This document shows, piece after piece, positions 1 through 63,262 of a DNA stretch of 64,000 nt. The stretch covers positions 1 to 64,000 of the forward strand of contig JAIQGG010000002.1 of NCBI GenBank assembly GCA_020072785.1, read 5' to 3'. The position numbers and the translations under genes are program-made. The notes below the pieces were generated by a model that had not been told where the DNA came from, made no database searches, and saw nothing but the letters and a program-made list of their open reading frames with translations. Position 1 is the first letter of the stretch, and each line of letters begins with the position of its first letter. Origin of the DNA: Terriglobia bacterium. Its GTDB lineage: Bacteria > Acidobacteriota > Terriglobia > Acidiferrales > UBA7541.

Positions 1-1344
1 CCGGCGGGCGGAGCGGTGGTGACGCTGGCGAGCAGCAATACCGCGGCAGCCACGGTGCCGGCCAGCGTGACGGTGGCGGCGGGAGCGACGAGCGCCACGT
101 TCACGGTGACCACCCTGGCGGTGAGTGTAGCGACGCCCGTAACCATCTCCGGAACCTACAACGGGACGCAGGGAGCTACGCTGACGGTAGATCCGCCGGC
201 GGTCACCGTGTCATCTGTTAGCTTGAGTCCGACCGCGGTGACCGGGGGAGCCTCTTCCACCGGGACGGTGACCCTGAGCAGCGCAGCTCCGGCGGGCGGA
301 GCGGTGGTGACGCTGGCGAGCAGCAATACCGCGGCAGCCACGGTGCCGGCCAGCGTGACGGTGGCGGCGGGAGCGACGAGCGCCACGTTCACGGTGACCA
401 CGATTCCGGTGGCGGTCAACACGACGGTAAGTATTTCCGCCACGCTCAATGGCACGACAAAGTCTGTGAATTTGACAGTCAGAGCGGCAGCTCTCTCTTC
501 GGTCTCACTCAGTCCAAACAACCCAGTCGGGGGAGCAGTGTCGAGAGGTACGGTGACTTTGAATGGCGCGGCTCCGGCAGGCGGAGCCGTGGTGACGCTC
601 ACGAGCAGCAATACCTCGGCCGCCACAGTGCCGGCCAGCGTGACGGTGGCGGCGGGAGCGACGAGCGCCACGTTCACGGTGACGACGACTCCGGTGGCGG
701 CCAACACGACGGTAAGCATTTCCGCCACGCTCAATGGCACGACAAGGTCTGCGAATTTGACAGTCAGAGCGGCAACTCCCTCCTCGCTCGCGCTCAGCCC
801 ATCCAGCGTAACTGGTGGGACCTCCTCAACCGGTACGGTAACCTTGAATGGCGCGGCTCCGGCTGGTGGAGCCGTGGTGACGCTGACGAGCAGCAACACC
901 TCGGCAGCGACAGTGCCTGCGAGCGTGACGGTGGCGGCGGGAGCGACGAGCGCCACGTTCACGGTGACCACGACTCCGGTGGCGGCCAGCACGACGGTTA
1001 CTATTTCTGCTGCGCTAAACGGCACGACTAGGAATGCGAGCTTGACGGTCTCTCGGCCGACTCCCTCTTCGCTCACGCTCAGTCCATCCAGCGTAACCGG
1101 CGGGACCTCCTCCACCGGTACGGTAACCCTGAATGGCGCGGCTCCAGCTGGTGGGGCAGTGGTGACGCTCACGAGCAACAAAACTTCGGTAGCTACGGTG
1201 CCGGCCAGCGTGACGGTGGCGGCGGGAGCGACGAGTGCCACGTTCACGGTGACGACGACTCCGGTGGCGGCCAGCACGACAGTTACCATTTCTGCTGCGC
1301 TAAACGGCACAACTAGGAGCGCGAGCTTGACGGTAACGCCCTGA
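1..1344 (+). CDS. Ig-like repeat surface/secreted protein, 5'-truncated by window edge
   Basis: The reading frame is open from base 1, so the start lies upstream; the 447 codons seen are only the C-terminal part. It is made of five tandem copies (the first incomplete) of a ~95-residue all-beta unit, each with an SSNTxxATVPASVTV core, an AGATSATFTVTT strand and a closing TVxISAxLNGT strand. Such Ser/Thr/Val-rich units are typical of bacterial Ig-like (BIG-type) domains in large surface or secreted adhesins. No anchor or sorting signal follows the last repeat; the protein ends just after it. The open frame on the opposite strand is a by-product of the repeats. The fold class is well supported; the biological role is not known. 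Confidence 0.8.
   Translation, partial: PAGGAVVTLASSNTAAATVPASVTVAAGATSATFTVTTLAVSVATPVTISGTYNGTQGATLTVDPPAVTVSSVSLSPTAVTGGASSTGTVTLSSAAPAGGAVVTLASSNTAAATVPASVTVAAGATSATFTVTTIPVAVNTTVSISATLNGTTKSVNLTVRAAALSSVSLSPNNPVGGAVSRGTVTLNGAAPAGGAVVTLTSSNTSAATVPASVTVAAGATSATFTVTTTPVAANTTVSISATLNGTTRSANLTVRAATPSSLALSPSSVTGGTSSTGTVTLNGAAPAGGAVVTLTSSNTSAATVPASVTVAAGATSATFTVTTTPVAASTTVTISAALNGTTRNASLTVSRPTPSSLTLSPSSVTGGTSSTGTVTLNGAAPAGGAVVTLTSNKTSVATVPASVTVAAGATSATFTVTTTPVAASTTVTISAALNGTTRSASLTVTP
13..1344 (+). repeat. Tandem 285-288 bp coding repeats
   Basis: The repeat phase mark (GCN GTG GTG ACG CT) recurs at 13, 301, 586, 871 and 1156, giving periods of 288, 285, 285 and 285 bp. Stretches such as the one encoding ASVTVAAGATSATFTVTT are nearly identical at the DNA level between copies, indicating recent duplication or gene conversion. 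Confidence 0.9.
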
Positions 1345-1569
1345 CGAGCCCGTAGCTCGGGGCGGCGAGCAAGCCAATCGCCGCAACCTTGATGGAAGAG
1401 GCGGCGTCCGCCAGTCTTGTCTGGCAGACGTTGAAGTTCTCGTTAAGCCGGACGGCGAGCAGGTCACACGATCTTCCTCTTCTCCTCCGCCGTCCTCTGC
1501 ATCCGCTCGCGCTTGCCCATACCTCCTCCGTTGTTCTCGGAGGCCCTTACTCATACCTAAACTACCTGT

Positions 1570-6501: not shown

Positions 6502-6541
6502 GATTCCGGCCGGGTCGGAAAGATTCCGGCCGGGTCGGAAA
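6502..6541. repeat. Tandem 20-bp palindromic repeat (TCCGRCC-GGTCGGA family)
   Basis: Two identical 20-bp copies of GATTCCGGCCGGGTCGGAAA stand in tandem in the 268-bp gap between the regulator and galE. Variants of this unit recur at 11645, 23941, 31747 and 39172. Confidence 0.8.
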
Positions 6542-6692
6542 GAATCGCAACTTCAAGTATTGCAACCCGGTCGTTCCACAGGGGCGGCTTCCGCAGCCAC
6601 GCGGTCCTCTTTCGCGCTGACAAGTTTCCGCCTTCCTGTTAGTTTGTTTTGGCGAAGAATTTCGTTGCCCTCGGGAAGGGGGACTACTCGGC

Positions 6693-8473: not shown

Positions 8474-8600
8474 AATGAAGCGAGAATTGTAGCGGTCCGC
8501 CCGCCGGAGAGTAAAGAAATCTCCCGGCCGCGTGTTTCGCCCCGCGCACCTCTCGGCCGGCTTTGCCCGCCGCACCTCGCCCGGGTATCCTACCAAGTGT

Positions 8601-8615
8601 GACCGCGAAGCGGTC
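8601..8615. repeat. 15-nt palindromic element GACCGCnnnGCGGTC, intergenic copy
   Basis: GACCGCGAAGCGGTC, a perfect 6-bp stem with a 3-nt centre, lies 36 bp before the mtaB start. A second hairpin, CCCGGGAACGCTCCGGG (about 8626-8642), follows directly. Confidence 0.85.
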
Positions 8616-8651
8616 ATCGCCTTTCCCCGGGAACGCTCCGGGCTACGCACC

Positions 8652-10549: not shown

Positions 10550-11554
10550 GTGCCCACAGCCAAAAGACAATCCGAGCGGCGCTCGCCCGCCCGCAGCGCC
10601 AAGACCGCGCCGGTCTCCCCGCCTTGGAAGCTCCTCGCCAGGGGCAGCGTGCGTGTTCTGCGCGCCGCGCCGTTCGATAAAATTCCCTGGCTCGTCCACG
10701 GCTTCAGCACCCGCCCCGGCGGCGTCAGCACACTTGTCGACCGCTCTGCGGTCGCACGTGAAGCCGACCGCTCTGCGGTCGCACGTGAGAAAGACGAGCG
10801 TGTCTTGAATCTCGGCTTTACCGACTGGGACACCCGCGAAAACGTCATCGAAAACCGCAAGCGCTTCCTCCGCGCCGCGGATGCCGCCGCGATGCCCCTC
10901 GTGTCCCTGCGCCAGTTCCATTCCGACGTCATCCGCCTCTTCGACGCCGCCCCGCCCGAGCCCTGCCGCGGCGACGCCTCCGCCACCGATCGTCCCGGCC
11001 TGCTTCTCGCCGTGCAGACCGCCGACTGCGTGCCCATCCTTCTCGCGGACACCCGCCGCCGCGCCGTCGCCGCCGTGCACGCCGGCTGGCGCGGGACCCT
11101 CCGCCGCATCGTGCAGAAGACCGTCGGCCGCATGCGCATGGAGTACGGCACGCGCCCCGAAGATCTCGTCGCCGCGCTCGGCCCGGCCATCGGCGGCTGC
11201 TGCTACGAGGTCGGCACCGAAGTCGCCCGCGATTTCTCTTCCCAGTTTGCCCGGGCCGCGGAATGGTTCGACGAACTGCGCACTGGCGATGAGCCCAACC
11301 CTTTGCAGTGGATGAACATGATGCCCCCCGGCCACCAGCCGCCCCCGAAAAACGTTCTGCTCGATCTGCGCCAGGCCAATCGCGCGCAGCTCCTCGACGC
11401 CGGCCTTCCCGAAAAAAACATCTTCGTCAGCGGCCTGTGCACCGCCTGCCGCACCGATCTCTTCTTCAGCTACCGCAAGGAAGGCCCGCAGTCCGGCCGC
11501 CTCATGGCCGTCATTGGGATTCGTGAGGATTCACGCCGCAAAGCAAAAAGTTAA
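10550..11554 (+). CDS. pgeF: Purine nucleoside phosphorylase/polyphenol oxidase of YfiH (PgeF, DUF152) family with in-frame palindrome insert
   Basis: 334 aa. The zinc-site residues of the family are visible: H124 (LRQFHSDV), C160 (QTADCVPIL) and H177 (AVHAGWRG). Family members act on purine nucleosides or peptidoglycan by-products. At residues 63-80 the loop between STRPGGVS and LNLGF carries VDRSAVARE followed by ADRSAVARE, encoded by two 27-bp tandem repeats centred on the palindrome GACCGCTCTGCGGTC. The frame is kept, so the gene is probably functional. A GTG at 10550 is the likely start; TATACT ends only 9 nt before it, suggesting a leaderless or very short-leader mRNA. The last codons run into an AACAGTC repeat. 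Confidence 0.88.
   Translation: MPTAKRQSERRSPARSAKTAPVSPPWKLLARGSVRVLRAAPFDKIPWLVHGFSTRPGGVSTLVDRSAVAREADRSAVAREKDERVLNLGFTDWDTRENVIENRKRFLRAADAAAMPLVSLRQFHSDVIRLFDAAPPEPCRGDASATDRPGLLLAVQTADCVPILLADTRRRAVAAVHAGWRGTLRRIVQKTVGRMRMEYGTRPEDLVAALGPAIGGCCYEVGTEVARDFSSQFARAAEWFDELRTGDEPNPLQWMNMMPPGHQPPPKNVLLDLRQANRAQLLDAGLPEKNIFVSGLCTACRTDLFFSYRKEGPQSGRLMAVIGIREDSRRKAKS
10739..10780 (+). repeat. Two in-frame copies of palindrome GACCGCTCTGCGGTC inside pgeF
   Basis: Perfect copies at 10739-10753 and 10766-10780, 27 bp apart, each followed by GCACGTGA. Both are translated as DRSAVARE. This is tandem duplication of a 27-bp unit within a coding sequence. Confidence 0.93.
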
Positions 11555-11674
11555 CAGTCAACAGTTAACAGTCAACAGTCGACAGTCACAGTCCACAATC
11601 TGTGCCAAAATTACCGATTGTCATCCTGAGCGAAGCGATCGAAGATTCCGACCCGGTCGGAAAGGATCTCAACT
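11551..11674. repeat. AACAGTC tandem repeat followed by dispersed CATCCTGAGCGAAGCG/TCCGACC element
   Basis: Degenerate 7-bp units (AACAGTC/AACAGTT/GACAGTC) run from 11551 to about 11593 and include the pgeF stop codon. Next come GTCATCCTGAGCGAAGCGAT and a TTCCGACCCGGTCGGAA palindrome with GGATCTCAAC. The same two-part element recurs at 23898 and, inverted, at 39160. No gene is seen in 11555-11841. Confidence 0.75.
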
Positions 11675-11784
11675 GTCAGTGTCTGCAATGCGTCACGTTA
11701 CGATTCTGCGGGCCGGGAATAAACTCCGGATGACGATGATTATTTTTTCCGCAGCCCGTTAAAAGTTGAAAGTTCCACCCCACA

Positions 11785-13072: not shown

Positions 13073-13681
13073 ATGGCTGACCGCTCGGCGATCACACCGG
13101 CAAAAGACCGGCTGCCGATTCAACAGTGGGTCGAAGGCCTCGCCGCCATTCCCGAGCCCGATTTCACCATCCAGCGCGTCCACGCCTATTTCTCTCAGCA
13201 CGCCATCCAGCCCGCTACTCTCGCCCCCTATCTCTTCTTCTCCCAGGGCAACTACACTCGCAACCTCATCTTCAAAAACAGCCTCTTCGAGTGCATGGCC
13301 ATCTGCTGGGAGATCGGCCAGGGCAGCCGCATCCACAATCACCGCGATCAGTACTGCTGGATGGCCGCTCCCATCGGCCGTCTGCGCATCCAGAATTTCC
13401 GCGTCGAAGCTCGCGACCCCGCCCGCGGCACCTGCCGCATCTTCCCCGCCGGCGTCGTGGAGATGACCCCCGATCAGTCCGCCTGCGTCGATCCCGCCGA
13501 GCCCGTCCACATCGTCCTCAATCCCCCCGAATACGCCCAGCGCGCCGTCAGCATCCACGTCTATTCCAAGCCTTTCGACAGCTGCGAAGTCTACCTCCGC
13601 GAGAAAGGCACCTACGCCGACGTCCCCCTCCACTACACCAGCGAATATGGCCGCCTCAACCCCGCCGAAAAGCTCCTGTAG
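13073..13681 (+). CDS. Cysteine dioxygenase family protein
   Basis: 202-aa cupin that probably oxidises cysteine or a similar thiol to the sulfinate using non-haem iron. The iron triad is visible: H88 and H90 (RIHNH) and H162 (VSIHVYSKPF); C95 (QYCWM) matches the Cys that forms the Cys-Tyr cross-link in many CDOs. GGGGGA 7 nt before the ATG at 13073 is a plausible ribosome site, and TATAAT at about 13023 may be a -10 box. The first codons read MADRSAITPAKD, encoded by GACCGCTCGGCGATC, a decayed copy of the 15-nt palindrome found in pgeF and dapD. 3-Mercaptopropionate dioxygenase is an alternative substrate class. Confidence 0.85.
   Translation: MADRSAITPAKDRLPIQQWVEGLAAIPEPDFTIQRVHAYFSQHAIQPATLAPYLFFSQGNYTRNLIFKNSLFECMAICWEIGQGSRIHNHRDQYCWMAAPIGRLRIQNFRVEARDPARGTCRIFPAGVVEMTPDQSACVDPAEPVHIVLNPPEYAQRAVSIHVYSKPFDSCEVYLREKGTYADVPLHYTSEYGRLNPAEKLL
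13079..13093 (+). repeat. Degenerate palindromic element at dioxygenase N-terminus
   Basis: GACCGCTCGGCGATC differs from GACCGCTCTGCGGTC at two positions and is read as DRSAI right after the start codon. Confidence 0.55.
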
Positions 13682-16955: not shown

Positions 16956-17131
16956 ATGCTTTGCCCGCCTGGAAACGGCCCCTGCACTTGTTCTAGCCCT
17001 TTTTTCGCAGCCTGCTAACTTTTTCCTTACCTCCTCCCCTCCGAACTTTCATTGACGGGATAGGAGATAGGGCCGTCGTAAAGCTCATGCGCGTGCGCTG
17101 GCGCCGCGACGCCAACGCGGCGATTCCACTT

Positions 17132-19775: not shown

Positions 19776-19908
19776 AGTGAAATCACCGCGTTGGCCTCGC
19801 GCCGCCGACACACGCCATGAGCTTTGCGGGCATCCCCGCCGCAAATTGCACCACACTAGTGCAAAATTGGCCGTTTTGAACGGCCCTATCTCCTATCCCA
19901 AACTTTCA

Positions 19909-21954: not shown

Positions 21955-22857
21955 ATGTTTACAGGATGCGGTACGGCCATGGTCACCCCCTTTCGGCGCG
22001 ACGCTTCGCTCGATGAGGCAACCCTGCGGCGGCTCATCCGCCGGCAGATGGAAGCGGGCGTGGATTTCCTCGTGCCCTGCGGCACGACCGGGGAGAGTCC
22101 CACGCTCACCCGCGAGGAGCACCTGCGCGTCGTGGCGATCACCGTCGAGCTGGCCAAGGGCCAGCTCCCCGTGCTCGCCGGCGCCGGCGGCTACAACACC
22201 GCCGAGGTCATCGCCATGGCCCGCGAACTCGCCGCCCTCGGCGTGGACGGCCTTCTCTCCGTCACCCCTTACTACAACAAGCCCACGCAGGAAGGCCTCT
22301 ACCAGCACTATCGCGCCATCGCCGCCGCGGTGCCCCTGCCCATCATCCTTTACAGCGTGCAGGGCCGCACCGGCGTGAACATCGAGCCGGCCACGGTCCA
22401 GCGCCTGGCCGCCATCGACAACATCGTCGGCATCAAGGAGGCCTCCGGAAATATTTCGCAGATGGCCGCCATCCTCAATGCCGTGCCGGAGCGCTTTCTC
22501 GTTCTCTCCGGCGACGACGCCCTCACCCTCCCGCTCATCGCCCTCGGCGGACGCGGCGTCATCTCCGTCGTCTCCAACGAAATCCCCGCGGAGATGGCCT
22601 GCCTGACGCGGCTCTGCCTGCAGAACGATCTTTCCGCCGCGCGCCAGTTCTATCGCCGCTATCTTCCCCTGATGGAAGTGAACTTCGCCGAGTCCAACCC
22701 CATTCCGGTGAAGGCGGCGATGGCCATGATGGGCCTGCTCGAACCCGTCTGGCGTCTGCCGCTCGTTCCCCCGCGCGCGGAAAGCCAGGCGCGCATTCGC
22801 GGCGTCCTCGAATCCCTGGGTCTCGTGGAGAGGACGCATGTTGCCATCGCCAGTTGA
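21955..22857 (+). CDS. dapA: 4-hydroxy-tetrahydrodipicolinate synthase
   Basis: 300-aa class I aldolase condensing pyruvate with aspartate semialdehyde, the committed step to diaminopimelate and lysine. GTTGES at 43-48, catalytic Tyr133 (ILYSV) and the Schiff-base Lys161 (IVGIKEASG) are present. AGGAGG 9 nt before the ATG at 21955. The 3' end overlaps dapD by 20 bp, and the stop codon TGA shares its last two bases with the palindromic element at 22856, so the C-terminus (HVAIAS) may have been reshaped by that insertion. Confidence 0.95.
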   Translation: MFTGCGTAMVTPFRRDASLDEATLRRLIRRQMEAGVDFLVPCGTTGESPTLTREEHLRVVAITVELAKGQLPVLAGAGGYNTAEVIAMARELAALGVDGLLSVTPYYNKPTQEGLYQHYRAIAAAVPLPIILYSVQGRTGVNIEPATVQRLAAIDNIVGIKEASGNISQMAAILNAVPERFLVLSGDDALTLPLIALGGRGVISVVSNEIPAEMACLTRLCLQNDLSAARQFYRRYLPLMEVNFAESNPIPVKAAMAMMGLLEPVWRLPLVPPRAESQARIRGVLESLGLVERTHVAIAS

Positions 22858-23731
22858 CCGCTTCGCGGTCGCGCGTGAAGTTGAGCGGCTCTTCGACGCG
22901 CCTCCCGCGCAGTACACCGAAGAACATTTCCGCCTCTTCGCCGCGTTCAAGGACGCGCTCAACCGCGGCGCAGTCCGCGCCGCCGAGCCTGATCCCGCTT
23001 CCAAGTCCGGCTGGCGCGCCAACGCCTGGGTCAAGAAGGGCATTCTCCTGGGCTTCCGCATGGGCACGGTCGTGGACATGTCCGTCGACCGCTCTGCGGT
23101 CGCACTGACAACAACCCCCGCTCTTCAGCCCTTTTTCGATAAGTCCACCTATCCCGTGCGCCCCCTCACGCTCTCTGACGGCGTGCGCGTCGTCCCCGGC
23201 GGCTCCAGCATCCGCGACGGCAGCTACATCGGCCGCGGCGTCGTCTGCATGCCCCCCATGTTCGTCAACGTCGGCGCCTACGTCGGCGAAGGCACCATGA
23301 TCGATTCCCACGCGCTCGTCGGGAGCTGCGCCCAGGTTGGCCGCAACTGCCACGTTTCCGCCGGCGCGCAGATCGGCGGCGTTCTCGAACCGGTTGGCGC
23401 GCTCCCGGTCATCCTCGAAGACGACGTTCTGCTCGGCGGCAATTCCGGCGTCTATGAAGGCACGGTCGTGAAACGCCGCGCCGTCCTGGGCACCGGCACC
23501 ATCCTCAACCGCTCCATTCCCGTCTACGACCTCGTCCGCGACGCCGTCTACACCGCCACCGGCACCGAGCCGCTCATCATTCCCGAAGAGGCCATCGTCG
23601 TCCCGGGCTCCCGCGCCGTTTCCCATCCCGCCGGCAAGCACTGGGGCCTCTCCCTGCAGGCCGCCGTCATCGTCAAATACCGCGACGCCAAAACCGACGC
23701 CCGCGTCCAGCTCGAGGACCTCCTCCGCTAG
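22838..23731 (+). CDS. dapD: Tetrahydrodipicolinate N-succinyltransferase with two palindrome-encoded inserts
   Basis: 297-aa left-handed beta-helix acyltransferase that succinylates tetrahydrodipicolinate. Hexapeptide coils run from about residue 115 (GSSIRDGSYIGRGVVCMPPM, then VNVGAYVGEGTMIDSHALVG and SAGAQIGGVLEP). Two copies of the 15-nt palindrome are translated: VDRFAVARE at residues 6-14 and VDRSAVA at 83-89, the latter placed between GTVVDMS and the PFFDKSTYPV strand where homologues have a short loop. GGAGAGGAC 4 nt before the ATG supports this start, so the first copy is indeed within the coding region. Confidence 0.94.
   Translation: MLPSPVDRFAVAREVERLFDAPPAQYTEEHFRLFAAFKDALNRGAVRAAEPDPASKSGWRANAWVKKGILLGFRMGTVVDMSVDRSAVALTTTPALQPFFDKSTYPVRPLTLSDGVRVVPGGSSIRDGSYIGRGVVCMPPMFVNVGAYVGEGTMIDSHALVGSCAQVGRNCHVSAGAQIGGVLEPVGALPVILEDDVLLGGNSGVYEGTVVKRRAVLGTGTILNRSIPVYDLVRDAVYTATGTEPLIIPEEAIVVPGSRAVSHPAGKHWGLSLQAAVIVKYRDAKTDARVQLEDLLR
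22856..22870 (+). repeat. Palindromic element at dapA/dapD junction
   Basis: GACCGCTTCGCGGTC. Its first two bases complete the dapA stop codon, and in the dapD frame it reads DRFAV. Confidence 0.9.
23087..23101 (+). repeat. Palindromic element within dapD
   Basis: GACCGCTCTGCGGTC, read in frame as DRSAV in a loop region. Confidence 0.92.
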
Positions 23732-23897: not shown

Positions 23898-23967
23898 TCA
23901 TCCTGAGTCCCGGTGTCTTTTACCGGGACGATCGCAGATTCCGGACCGGCCGGAAAGGATCTCAACG
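23898..23967. repeat. Dispersed CATCCTGAG / TCCGGACCGGCCGGA element
   Basis: TGTCATCCTGAG, a small CCCGGT-TTTT-ACCGGG hairpin, then GATTCCGGACCGGCCGGAAA and GGATCTCAAC. Same organisation as 11618-11674. The rest of the 350-bp gap 23732-24081 holds no gene. Confidence 0.7.
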
Positions 23968-24081
23968 GATGGCGTCTCCCATACATTTGCGTCGGTTTCT
24001 AAATTGCGCATCTCCGACCCCCGCCTTTCCCCTTTGCGCAAGCCCCAGCCTTCTCTCCGCCAATTCTGTTAGCATCCTCCT

Positions 24082-25439: not shown

Positions 25440-25913
25440 TATTCCCTGTAGGGGCGGGGCTTGCCCCGCCCGGGCAGCTCGCCCAGCCTTCTCCGAATTC
25501 CTTGTAGGGGCACGGCACGCCGTGCCCGCCCCCCAGCCTGTAGGCGCGGGGCGGAACTTGTCCCGACTTGGTCGGGAGCCCCGCCCTTTTCGCCCCGCCC
25601 AGGATAGCTCGCCCCGACCTTGTCGGGGCCCTCTTCCTGAACAATCCCAAACCCGCCCCGTCATTCCGAACGGAGCGAAGCGATGTGAGGAATCTCTCTT
25701 CGCTTGCCGGGTGAGCAACTCTCCGCTCCGGGCACAACCCCAGCCCTCTCCGAATTCTTTGTAGGGGCGCGCGCAATGGCCGGGCAACATCCAGCACAAT
25801 GACGGGGTCGGCGGAGTGCGGGGAGGATTCCGCGTCGCGCTCCTGCTCGATGGCCGGGAGCTGAACTTATAGAAGCGGGGCGGAATTTATCCCGACTTGG
25901 TCGGGAGCCCCGC
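25440..25913. repeat. Cluster of TGTAG-headed hairpins and two 39-bp near-identical repeats
   Basis: Hairpins preceded by TGTAG: GGGGCGGGGCTTGCCCCGCC (25450), GGGGCACGGCACGCCGTGCC (25507) and others near 25763. A 39-bp unit (GCGGGGCGGAA...GGTCGGGAGCCCCGC) occurs at 25546-25584 and again at 25875-25913 with two differences. A CGTCATTCCGAACGGAGCG motif is at 25660. No gene is apparent between 25423 and 25913. Confidence 0.8.
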
Positions 25914-39159: not shown

Positions 39160-39213
39160 GAGAGATTCCTTCCGACCGGGTCGGAATCTTCGATCGCTGC
39201 GCTCGGAATGACG
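39160..39213. repeat. Dispersed TCCGACC/GCTCGGAATGACGG element
   Basis: GAGAGATTCCTTCCGACCGGGTCGGAAT..., then GATCGCTGCGCTCGGAATGACGG: the reverse-oriented form of the elements at 11618 and 23898. Confidence 0.7.
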
Positions 39214-63183: not shown

Positions 63184-63204
63184 GTTGTTCTCCTTTGTAT
63201 GCGT

Positions 63205-63219
63205 GACCGCGAAGCGGTC
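63205..63219. repeat. 15-nt palindromic element between arsR and arsM
   Basis: GACCGCGAAGCGGTC (minus strand reads GACCGCTTCGCGGTC). A second hairpin, CCGCCCTCTGAAGAGGGCGG, lies at 63237-63256 in the same gap. Confidence 0.88.
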
Positions 63220-63262
63220 AACTTGCAAGAAAATTCCCGCCCTCTGAAGAGGGCGGCTACAG

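Follow-up and report, generated by a model that had tools for sequence, protein, structure and literature searches.

A 27-bp palindromic unit repeated in pgeF of a soil acidobacterium, probably a REP-like mobile element

Two 27-bp units within pgeF

The window that we analyzed is a stretch of 64,000 nucleotides (contig 2, bases 1-64000) from the 3.73-Mb, 98.9% complete genome of a soil acidobacterium. It contains pgeF (YfiH/YlmD; Pfam Cu-oxidase_4, PF02578, E = 2.2e-69) at 10550..11554 on the forward strand, with a proposed GTG start. The gene carries an insert of two tandem 27-bp units on the same strand, GTCGACCGCTCTGCGGTCGCACGTGAA at 10736..10762, which encodes VDRSAVARE, and GCCGACCGCTCTGCGGTCGCACGTGAG at 10763..10789, which encodes ADRSAVARE. 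Each of the two units (10736-10789) holds GACCGCTCTGCGGTC in frame, and their palindromes lie at 10739-10753 and 10766-10780, 27 bp apart. The original prediction that two palindromic copies are repeated here in tandem and in frame was borne out. It had placed the palindromes correctly, but the extent of the units is corrected to the coordinates given above.

Homologues of pgeF were present in 82 of 89 genomes of the same family. Alignment of homologues had been proposed as a check on the insertion, and the 18 columns of the insert were empty in 29 of the 29 PgeF homologues aligned, down to 58% identity and including one that is 93% identical. In the closest relative, pgeF is exactly 54 bp shorter, corresponding to the absence of the two units. 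That this empty site is derived, by precise deletion, is contradicted by outgroup homologues, which also lack the 54 bp. The insert sits in a variable loop between GGVS-L and xGExVLNLGF, and the reading frame and conserved residues of the host protein appear to be retained. Judged from its sequence, PgeF tolerates 18 additional residues in the GGVS-LNLGF loop. An AlphaFold model of PgeF (19 sequences) had a mean pLDDT of 39, too low for structural conclusions.

A family of units dispersed in and between genes

The core of the unit, GACCGCNNNGCGGTC, had 253 matches in the 3.73-Mb genome, compared with 5 for a reversed-pattern control, a count far from the chance level that would have spoken against the original prediction. 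There were six matches in the window and none across 100 dinucleotide shuffles of it. We read 2.05 Mb of sequence (contig 1 and contig 2:1-1284000, or 55% of the genome), in which 186 copies agreed with the consensus at 17 or more of its 22 positions; the reversed consensus had no copies at this threshold in the 1.25 Mb tested. Matches of 17/22 are included among the 186 copies and excluded from the 125 arrays analyzed below. One of them, within uvrA (contig 2:1069944), is common to a relative and probably due to chance, as is a similar near-match in an NlpC-like gene that the relative also has.

In its defined orientation, the unit reads GTTGACCGCTTCGCGGTCACACATACA (27 bp) and is laid out as GTTGACCGC-TTC-GCGGTCAC plus a spacer. 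It is asymmetric around the palindrome, with 3 bp, then the 15-bp palindrome, then 9 bp, and the spacer half is less conserved. Among single copies, the first base is G in 99%, giving a sharp 5' edge, and each position of the GTTG at the foot of the stem is 96-99% conserved. When single-stranded, the unit is predicted to fold into a 7-bp stem with a 3-nt loop (z = -4.4 to -4.7 relative to shuffles), and the outermost stem pair covaries from T-A to C-G (p = 1e-8, with copies rather than events counted). There was nearly no information in the 5' flank. In contrast to the 5' junction, which has no homology, the 3' flank after the last unit approximates RRKGA, its +3 position being G in 83% of arrays, and the first bases of the unit itself, GTTGA, resemble this 3' target. 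The unit thus has the properties of a REP in the broad sense, being short (within 14-40 nt), palindromic, and present in many similar copies.

Units often follow one another head to tail every 27 bp, in arrays of up to 7. Of 56 close neighbor pairs, 54 had the same orientation and 49 had both the same orientation and 27-bp spacing. Because units are more alike within an array than between arrays, local duplication must contribute at least partly to array formation. In one array (contig 1:522560-522685), two variants of the unit, encoding VDGVEVAPK and VDRFAVTHT, alternate as a 54-bp higher-order duplication.

Several other genes in the window are associated with units. Within dapD (22838-23731), there are two in-frame units on the forward strand, one near the N-terminus (22853..22879; VDRFAVARE) and one further inside (23084..23110; VDRSAVALT), the latter giving a net 9 extra residues compared with nearly all of 18 homologues. 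A single unit on the reverse strand (8592..8618) lies within a MiaB/MtaB-like gene as read from its longest ORF and is probably upstream of the true ATG, to judge from the MATFYIEQFGC N-terminus. A diverged unit (18/22 matches; 13076..13102, forward strand) lies at the start of the next ORF, and a reverse-strand unit at 63196..63222 is directly upstream of a gene; a relative has two units at that site and is 27 bp longer. Elsewhere in the genome, an N4-(glucosaminyl)asparaginase-like enzyme is longer by about 18 residues, here from the other open frame (LTASRSPI...), a TonB-like protein has five in-frame units at three sites, and there are in-frame units in a Peptidase_C26 amidohydrolase, an S15 peptidase and other proteins. 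An in-frame unit in TilS is suggested to be an insert by the matches to three relatives, which break nearby.

Among the 125 arrays in 2.05 Mb, of which about 80% is coding, 64 are intergenic, 21 overlap the edge of a predicted gene, and 40 are inside predicted ORFs. These gene calls come from our own simple gene finder, and for several of the 40 internal arrays, those close to the 5' end of an ORF, the true start probably lies further downstream. The original prediction was right that the family enters genes in frame, as in pgeF (29/29 homologues without the residues), dapD and the asparaginase, where conserved genes carry units missing from homologues, as Rickettsia palindromic elements (RPEs) do. 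It is not mainly a protein-invading family, and its placement predominantly outside genes is that of REPs. Intragenic arrays were in phases 0, 1 and 2 in 35, 0 and 5 cases; phase 1 would bring in a TGA. Target preference alone predicts 61, 12 and 26%, so the bias is largely accounted for by target preference together with the stop codon, and any extra selection is modest at most. There was no orientation bias of the 125 arrays relative to replication direction or transcription.

Filled and empty sites in related genomes

The family is patchily distributed. Most of the 89 genomes of the same family, the comparison genomes being metagenome assemblies, had 0-6 core matches, similar to the control. 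High counts were found in genomes of the same genus: the source genome (253) and two others, G029 (237) and G016 (100), with several more at 10-26. In a scan of 84,980 species for an exact 20-base match, the sequence was found nearly only in soil acidobacterial metagenome-assembled genomes, namely JAIQEV01 (Terriglobia bacterium SRVP_26), QHYP01 and a few related 'gp2' assemblies; a single match in Paenarthrobacter is probably due to chance. This distribution indicates that the burst was recent and lineage-specific.

We compared the source genome with a relative (G029/JAIQEV01, Terriglobia), using flanks with a median identity of 91% projected to the array edges. Among the unique orthologous sites, 30 were occupied in just one of the two genomes, including contig 1:616499, contig 1:617015 and contig 2:899338 in the source, and L092:7661, L220:7458 and L224:310 in the relative. 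The junctions were exact at 13 of these sites and within 2 bases at 19; at the remaining 11 they were imprecise, some of them in diverged flanks. We found neither target duplication nor loss of target bases in these comparisons. At a further 28 shared sites, in a count in which a site compared both ways may figure twice, the two genomes have unequal numbers of copies, and the difference is mostly a whole multiple of 27 bp.

In those reconstructed empty sites whose flanks are good, there was a purine at +0 in 11 of 12 and G at +3 in 9 of 12. Because empty sites already bear an RRNG-like sequence, the preference belongs to the target and not to the element. The absence of target duplication and the short preferred target adjoining the insertion are as in IS200/IS605 elements.

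Origin and spread of the units

These results indicate that the pgeF insert very probably consists of a REP-like, recently mobile and non-autonomous palindrome, two units of which stand in tandem. The unit enters as a monomer or a head-to-tail multimer directly 5' of an RRNG-like target, and arrays then expand and contract by 27 bp at a time. With its length of nine codons, no stops in four of the six frames, and a target (a purine, with G three bases on) that tends to fall at codon starts, many insertions in genes keep the frame open. Most coding insertions are nonetheless selected out or never happen, which leaves about two thirds of the arrays not contained in ORFs. Counting against this explanation are the lack of a linked mobilizing gene in the loci searched, the lack of orientation bias, the greater likeness of units within an array, and the 11 imprecise junctions.

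How such a unit is transferred is less certain. The absence of target duplication, the exact edges, and the resemblance of the GTTGA start to the 3' target point to transfer as single-stranded DNA, in which an enzyme of the HUH/Y1 type acting in trans would cut the hairpin and join it again, a mechanism to which we give slightly less than even weight. On the complementary strand, the order at a site is TCNNY and then TGTATGTG-hairpin-AAC, and the unit end, TCAAC, fits the same target pattern, so that insertion beside an existing unit would yield exact head-to-tail arrays. The proposed pattern parallels the logic of IS200/IS605 elements (PMC8266576, PMC6006769). An orientation bias toward the lagging strand, a possible prediction of single-strand transposition, was not evident in the 2.05 Mb. 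More tentatively, the 27 nt could by themselves be a complete mobile unit with precise bounds, on which an enzyme independent of the GTAG tag acts in trans, with the nine codons and the codon-phased target permitting persistence in conserved genes. If so, few known transposable units that insert precisely would be as small.

The main rival is an origin by microhomology, in which copies spread by template switching or break repair at the RRKGA target and GTTGA start, with tandem slippage and no dedicated enzyme. The likeness of the 3' flank to the unit's own 5' end and the growth of arrays in place are both consistent with this, and the search for a transposase turned up none, whether as a linked Y1_Tnp gene, as cargo, or as a correlated Y1 type. 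We nevertheless consider it unlikely. The 5' junction is exact despite having no homology, the units measure 27 bp and begin sharply where varied junctions and partial units would be expected, and the burst is limited to a few genomes.

A similarly low probability attaches to a classical REP family mobilized by a RAYT, whose REPtron was missed or has been lost. The size, hairpin and copy number are REP-like, REPtron loss is possible (PMC3733652), and Y1_Tnp genes are present, three in the source genome and some in relatives. However, no unit directly flanks a Y1_Tnp gene in the 30 loci searched, with flanks of up to 1.5 kb, the nearest being more than 1 kb away, and there was no transposon-like cargo between neighboring copies, which are separated by ordinary core genes. 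The best candidate among the Y1 genes looks TIR-associated, with terminal repeats of its own (CCCCACGTG) that are unrelated to the 27-bp unit, and has no linked unit. Y1 type was uncorrelated with copy number: one type that had seemed specific to the three high-copy genomes was equally present in genomes with 0-6 copies. The tag sequences also differ. The consensus contains neither GTAG, having GTTG at that position, nor the CGTC of CGTC REPs, RPE-4 and RPE-6, and a GTTG variant at the foot abolishes cleavage by the Stenotrophomonas enzyme (PMC8266576). One Y1 transposase gene of a type widespread in the genus (contig 2:747410-747937) lies between hairpins of its own, CCCCACGTGC...GCACGTGGGG.

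Multiplication of a regulatory site for its usefulness, as an operator or a promoter (TTGACC-16-TANAAA), is very improbable. Many copies are intergenic, some of them directly upstream of a Shine-Dalgarno-like AAGGA, but there is no clear preference in orientation to the downstream gene (35/63), copies lie inside ORFs, presence is patchy and lineage-specific, and empty sites exist. That the insert is just a normal variable loop of PgeF in which a palindrome arose by chance has practically no probability, since, although it does fall in a variable loop, its residues are missing from every aligned homologue and the same 27 bp recurs across the genome; the 253 matches against 5, together with the homologues, rule out both a chance palindrome and a conserved loop.

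The mobile palindrome favored here is of a kind already known. Intragenic GTAG or CGTC repeats encoding 20-82 residues occur in Opitutus terrae, Rickettsia conorii, Stenotrophomonas and others, and RPE-4 and RPE-6 are themselves CGTC REPs (PMC3733652). The comparison with RPEs made in the original prediction holds in effect, for an in-frame, repeated and mobile palindrome. As described for RPEs (PMC3733652), the units are dispersed in and between genes, keep the frame of ORFs whose products are likely functional, and are absent from relatives. Unlike RPEs, they are 27 bp long, lack CGTC, and inhabit a free-living acidobacterium, with precise empty sites and target preference resolved and with exact-period head-to-tail arrays. 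GTAG REPs and their REPtrons (RAYT/TnpA_REP; Opitutus terrae, Stenotrophomonas) are similar in having 20-40 bp, a single short-loop hairpin, hundreds of mostly intergenic copies with some in ORFs, dimers and clusters, and expected handling as single-stranded DNA. They differ from the 27-bp family in that its tag position has GTTG and no REPtron was found, and in that its arrays are direct and exact where REP dimers mostly have variable spacers. REPINs are also small, palindromic, mobile and of high copy number, but they are inverted REP pairs, whereas neighboring 27-bp units nearly all have the same orientation. TIR-flanked tyrosine transposases (TIRYT) have been reported for the Acidobacteria Koribacter and Terriglobus (PMC3733652), and the source genome has a TIR-associated Y1 transposase, but its flanking repeats, CCCCACGTG..., are unrelated to the unit. 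As tested here, the family is thus outside both tagged superfamilies, though RPE-like in behavior.

Such elements had been put forward as apparently undescribed in this kind of organism. In an incomplete literature search, neither the 27-bp family nor insertions of this sort turned up for Acidobacteriota. In-frame REPs are known in several bacteria other than Rickettsia (PMC3733652). The precise untagged unit and the exact empty sites are, to our knowledge, new. The way in which REP-like palindromes and RPEs move becomes directly testable in the 27-bp family, where many recent insertions with exact empty sites can be studied together with the fixed length of the unit, its preferred target, and in-place changes of copy number between two close genomes. 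The nine-residue insertions in conserved enzymes are also a natural set for studying protein tolerance.

There are other repeats in the region. At the very start of the window (1-1392), a 285-bp unit is repeated five times in tandem, the copies being 69-86% alike; they are probably from a repeat-domain protein. A second interspersed inverted repeat, GTCATCCTGAGCGAAGCG...GATTCCGACCCGGTCGGAAAGGATCTC, occurs at 6502-6567, 11620-11689, 23929-23982 and 39162-39212, with copies up to 90% complementary; it resembles a repeat often mis-annotated as CHPERSEG in acidobacteria. Two 44-nt direct repeats with TCCCGACTTGGTCGGGA (25541-25584 and 25870-25913), 91% alike, represent a further palindromic family. 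The inverted repeat GGGATAGGAGATAGGGCCGT is found at 17057-17076 and 19880-19899, and a similar sequence comes straight after a 27-bp unit near contig 1:387262.
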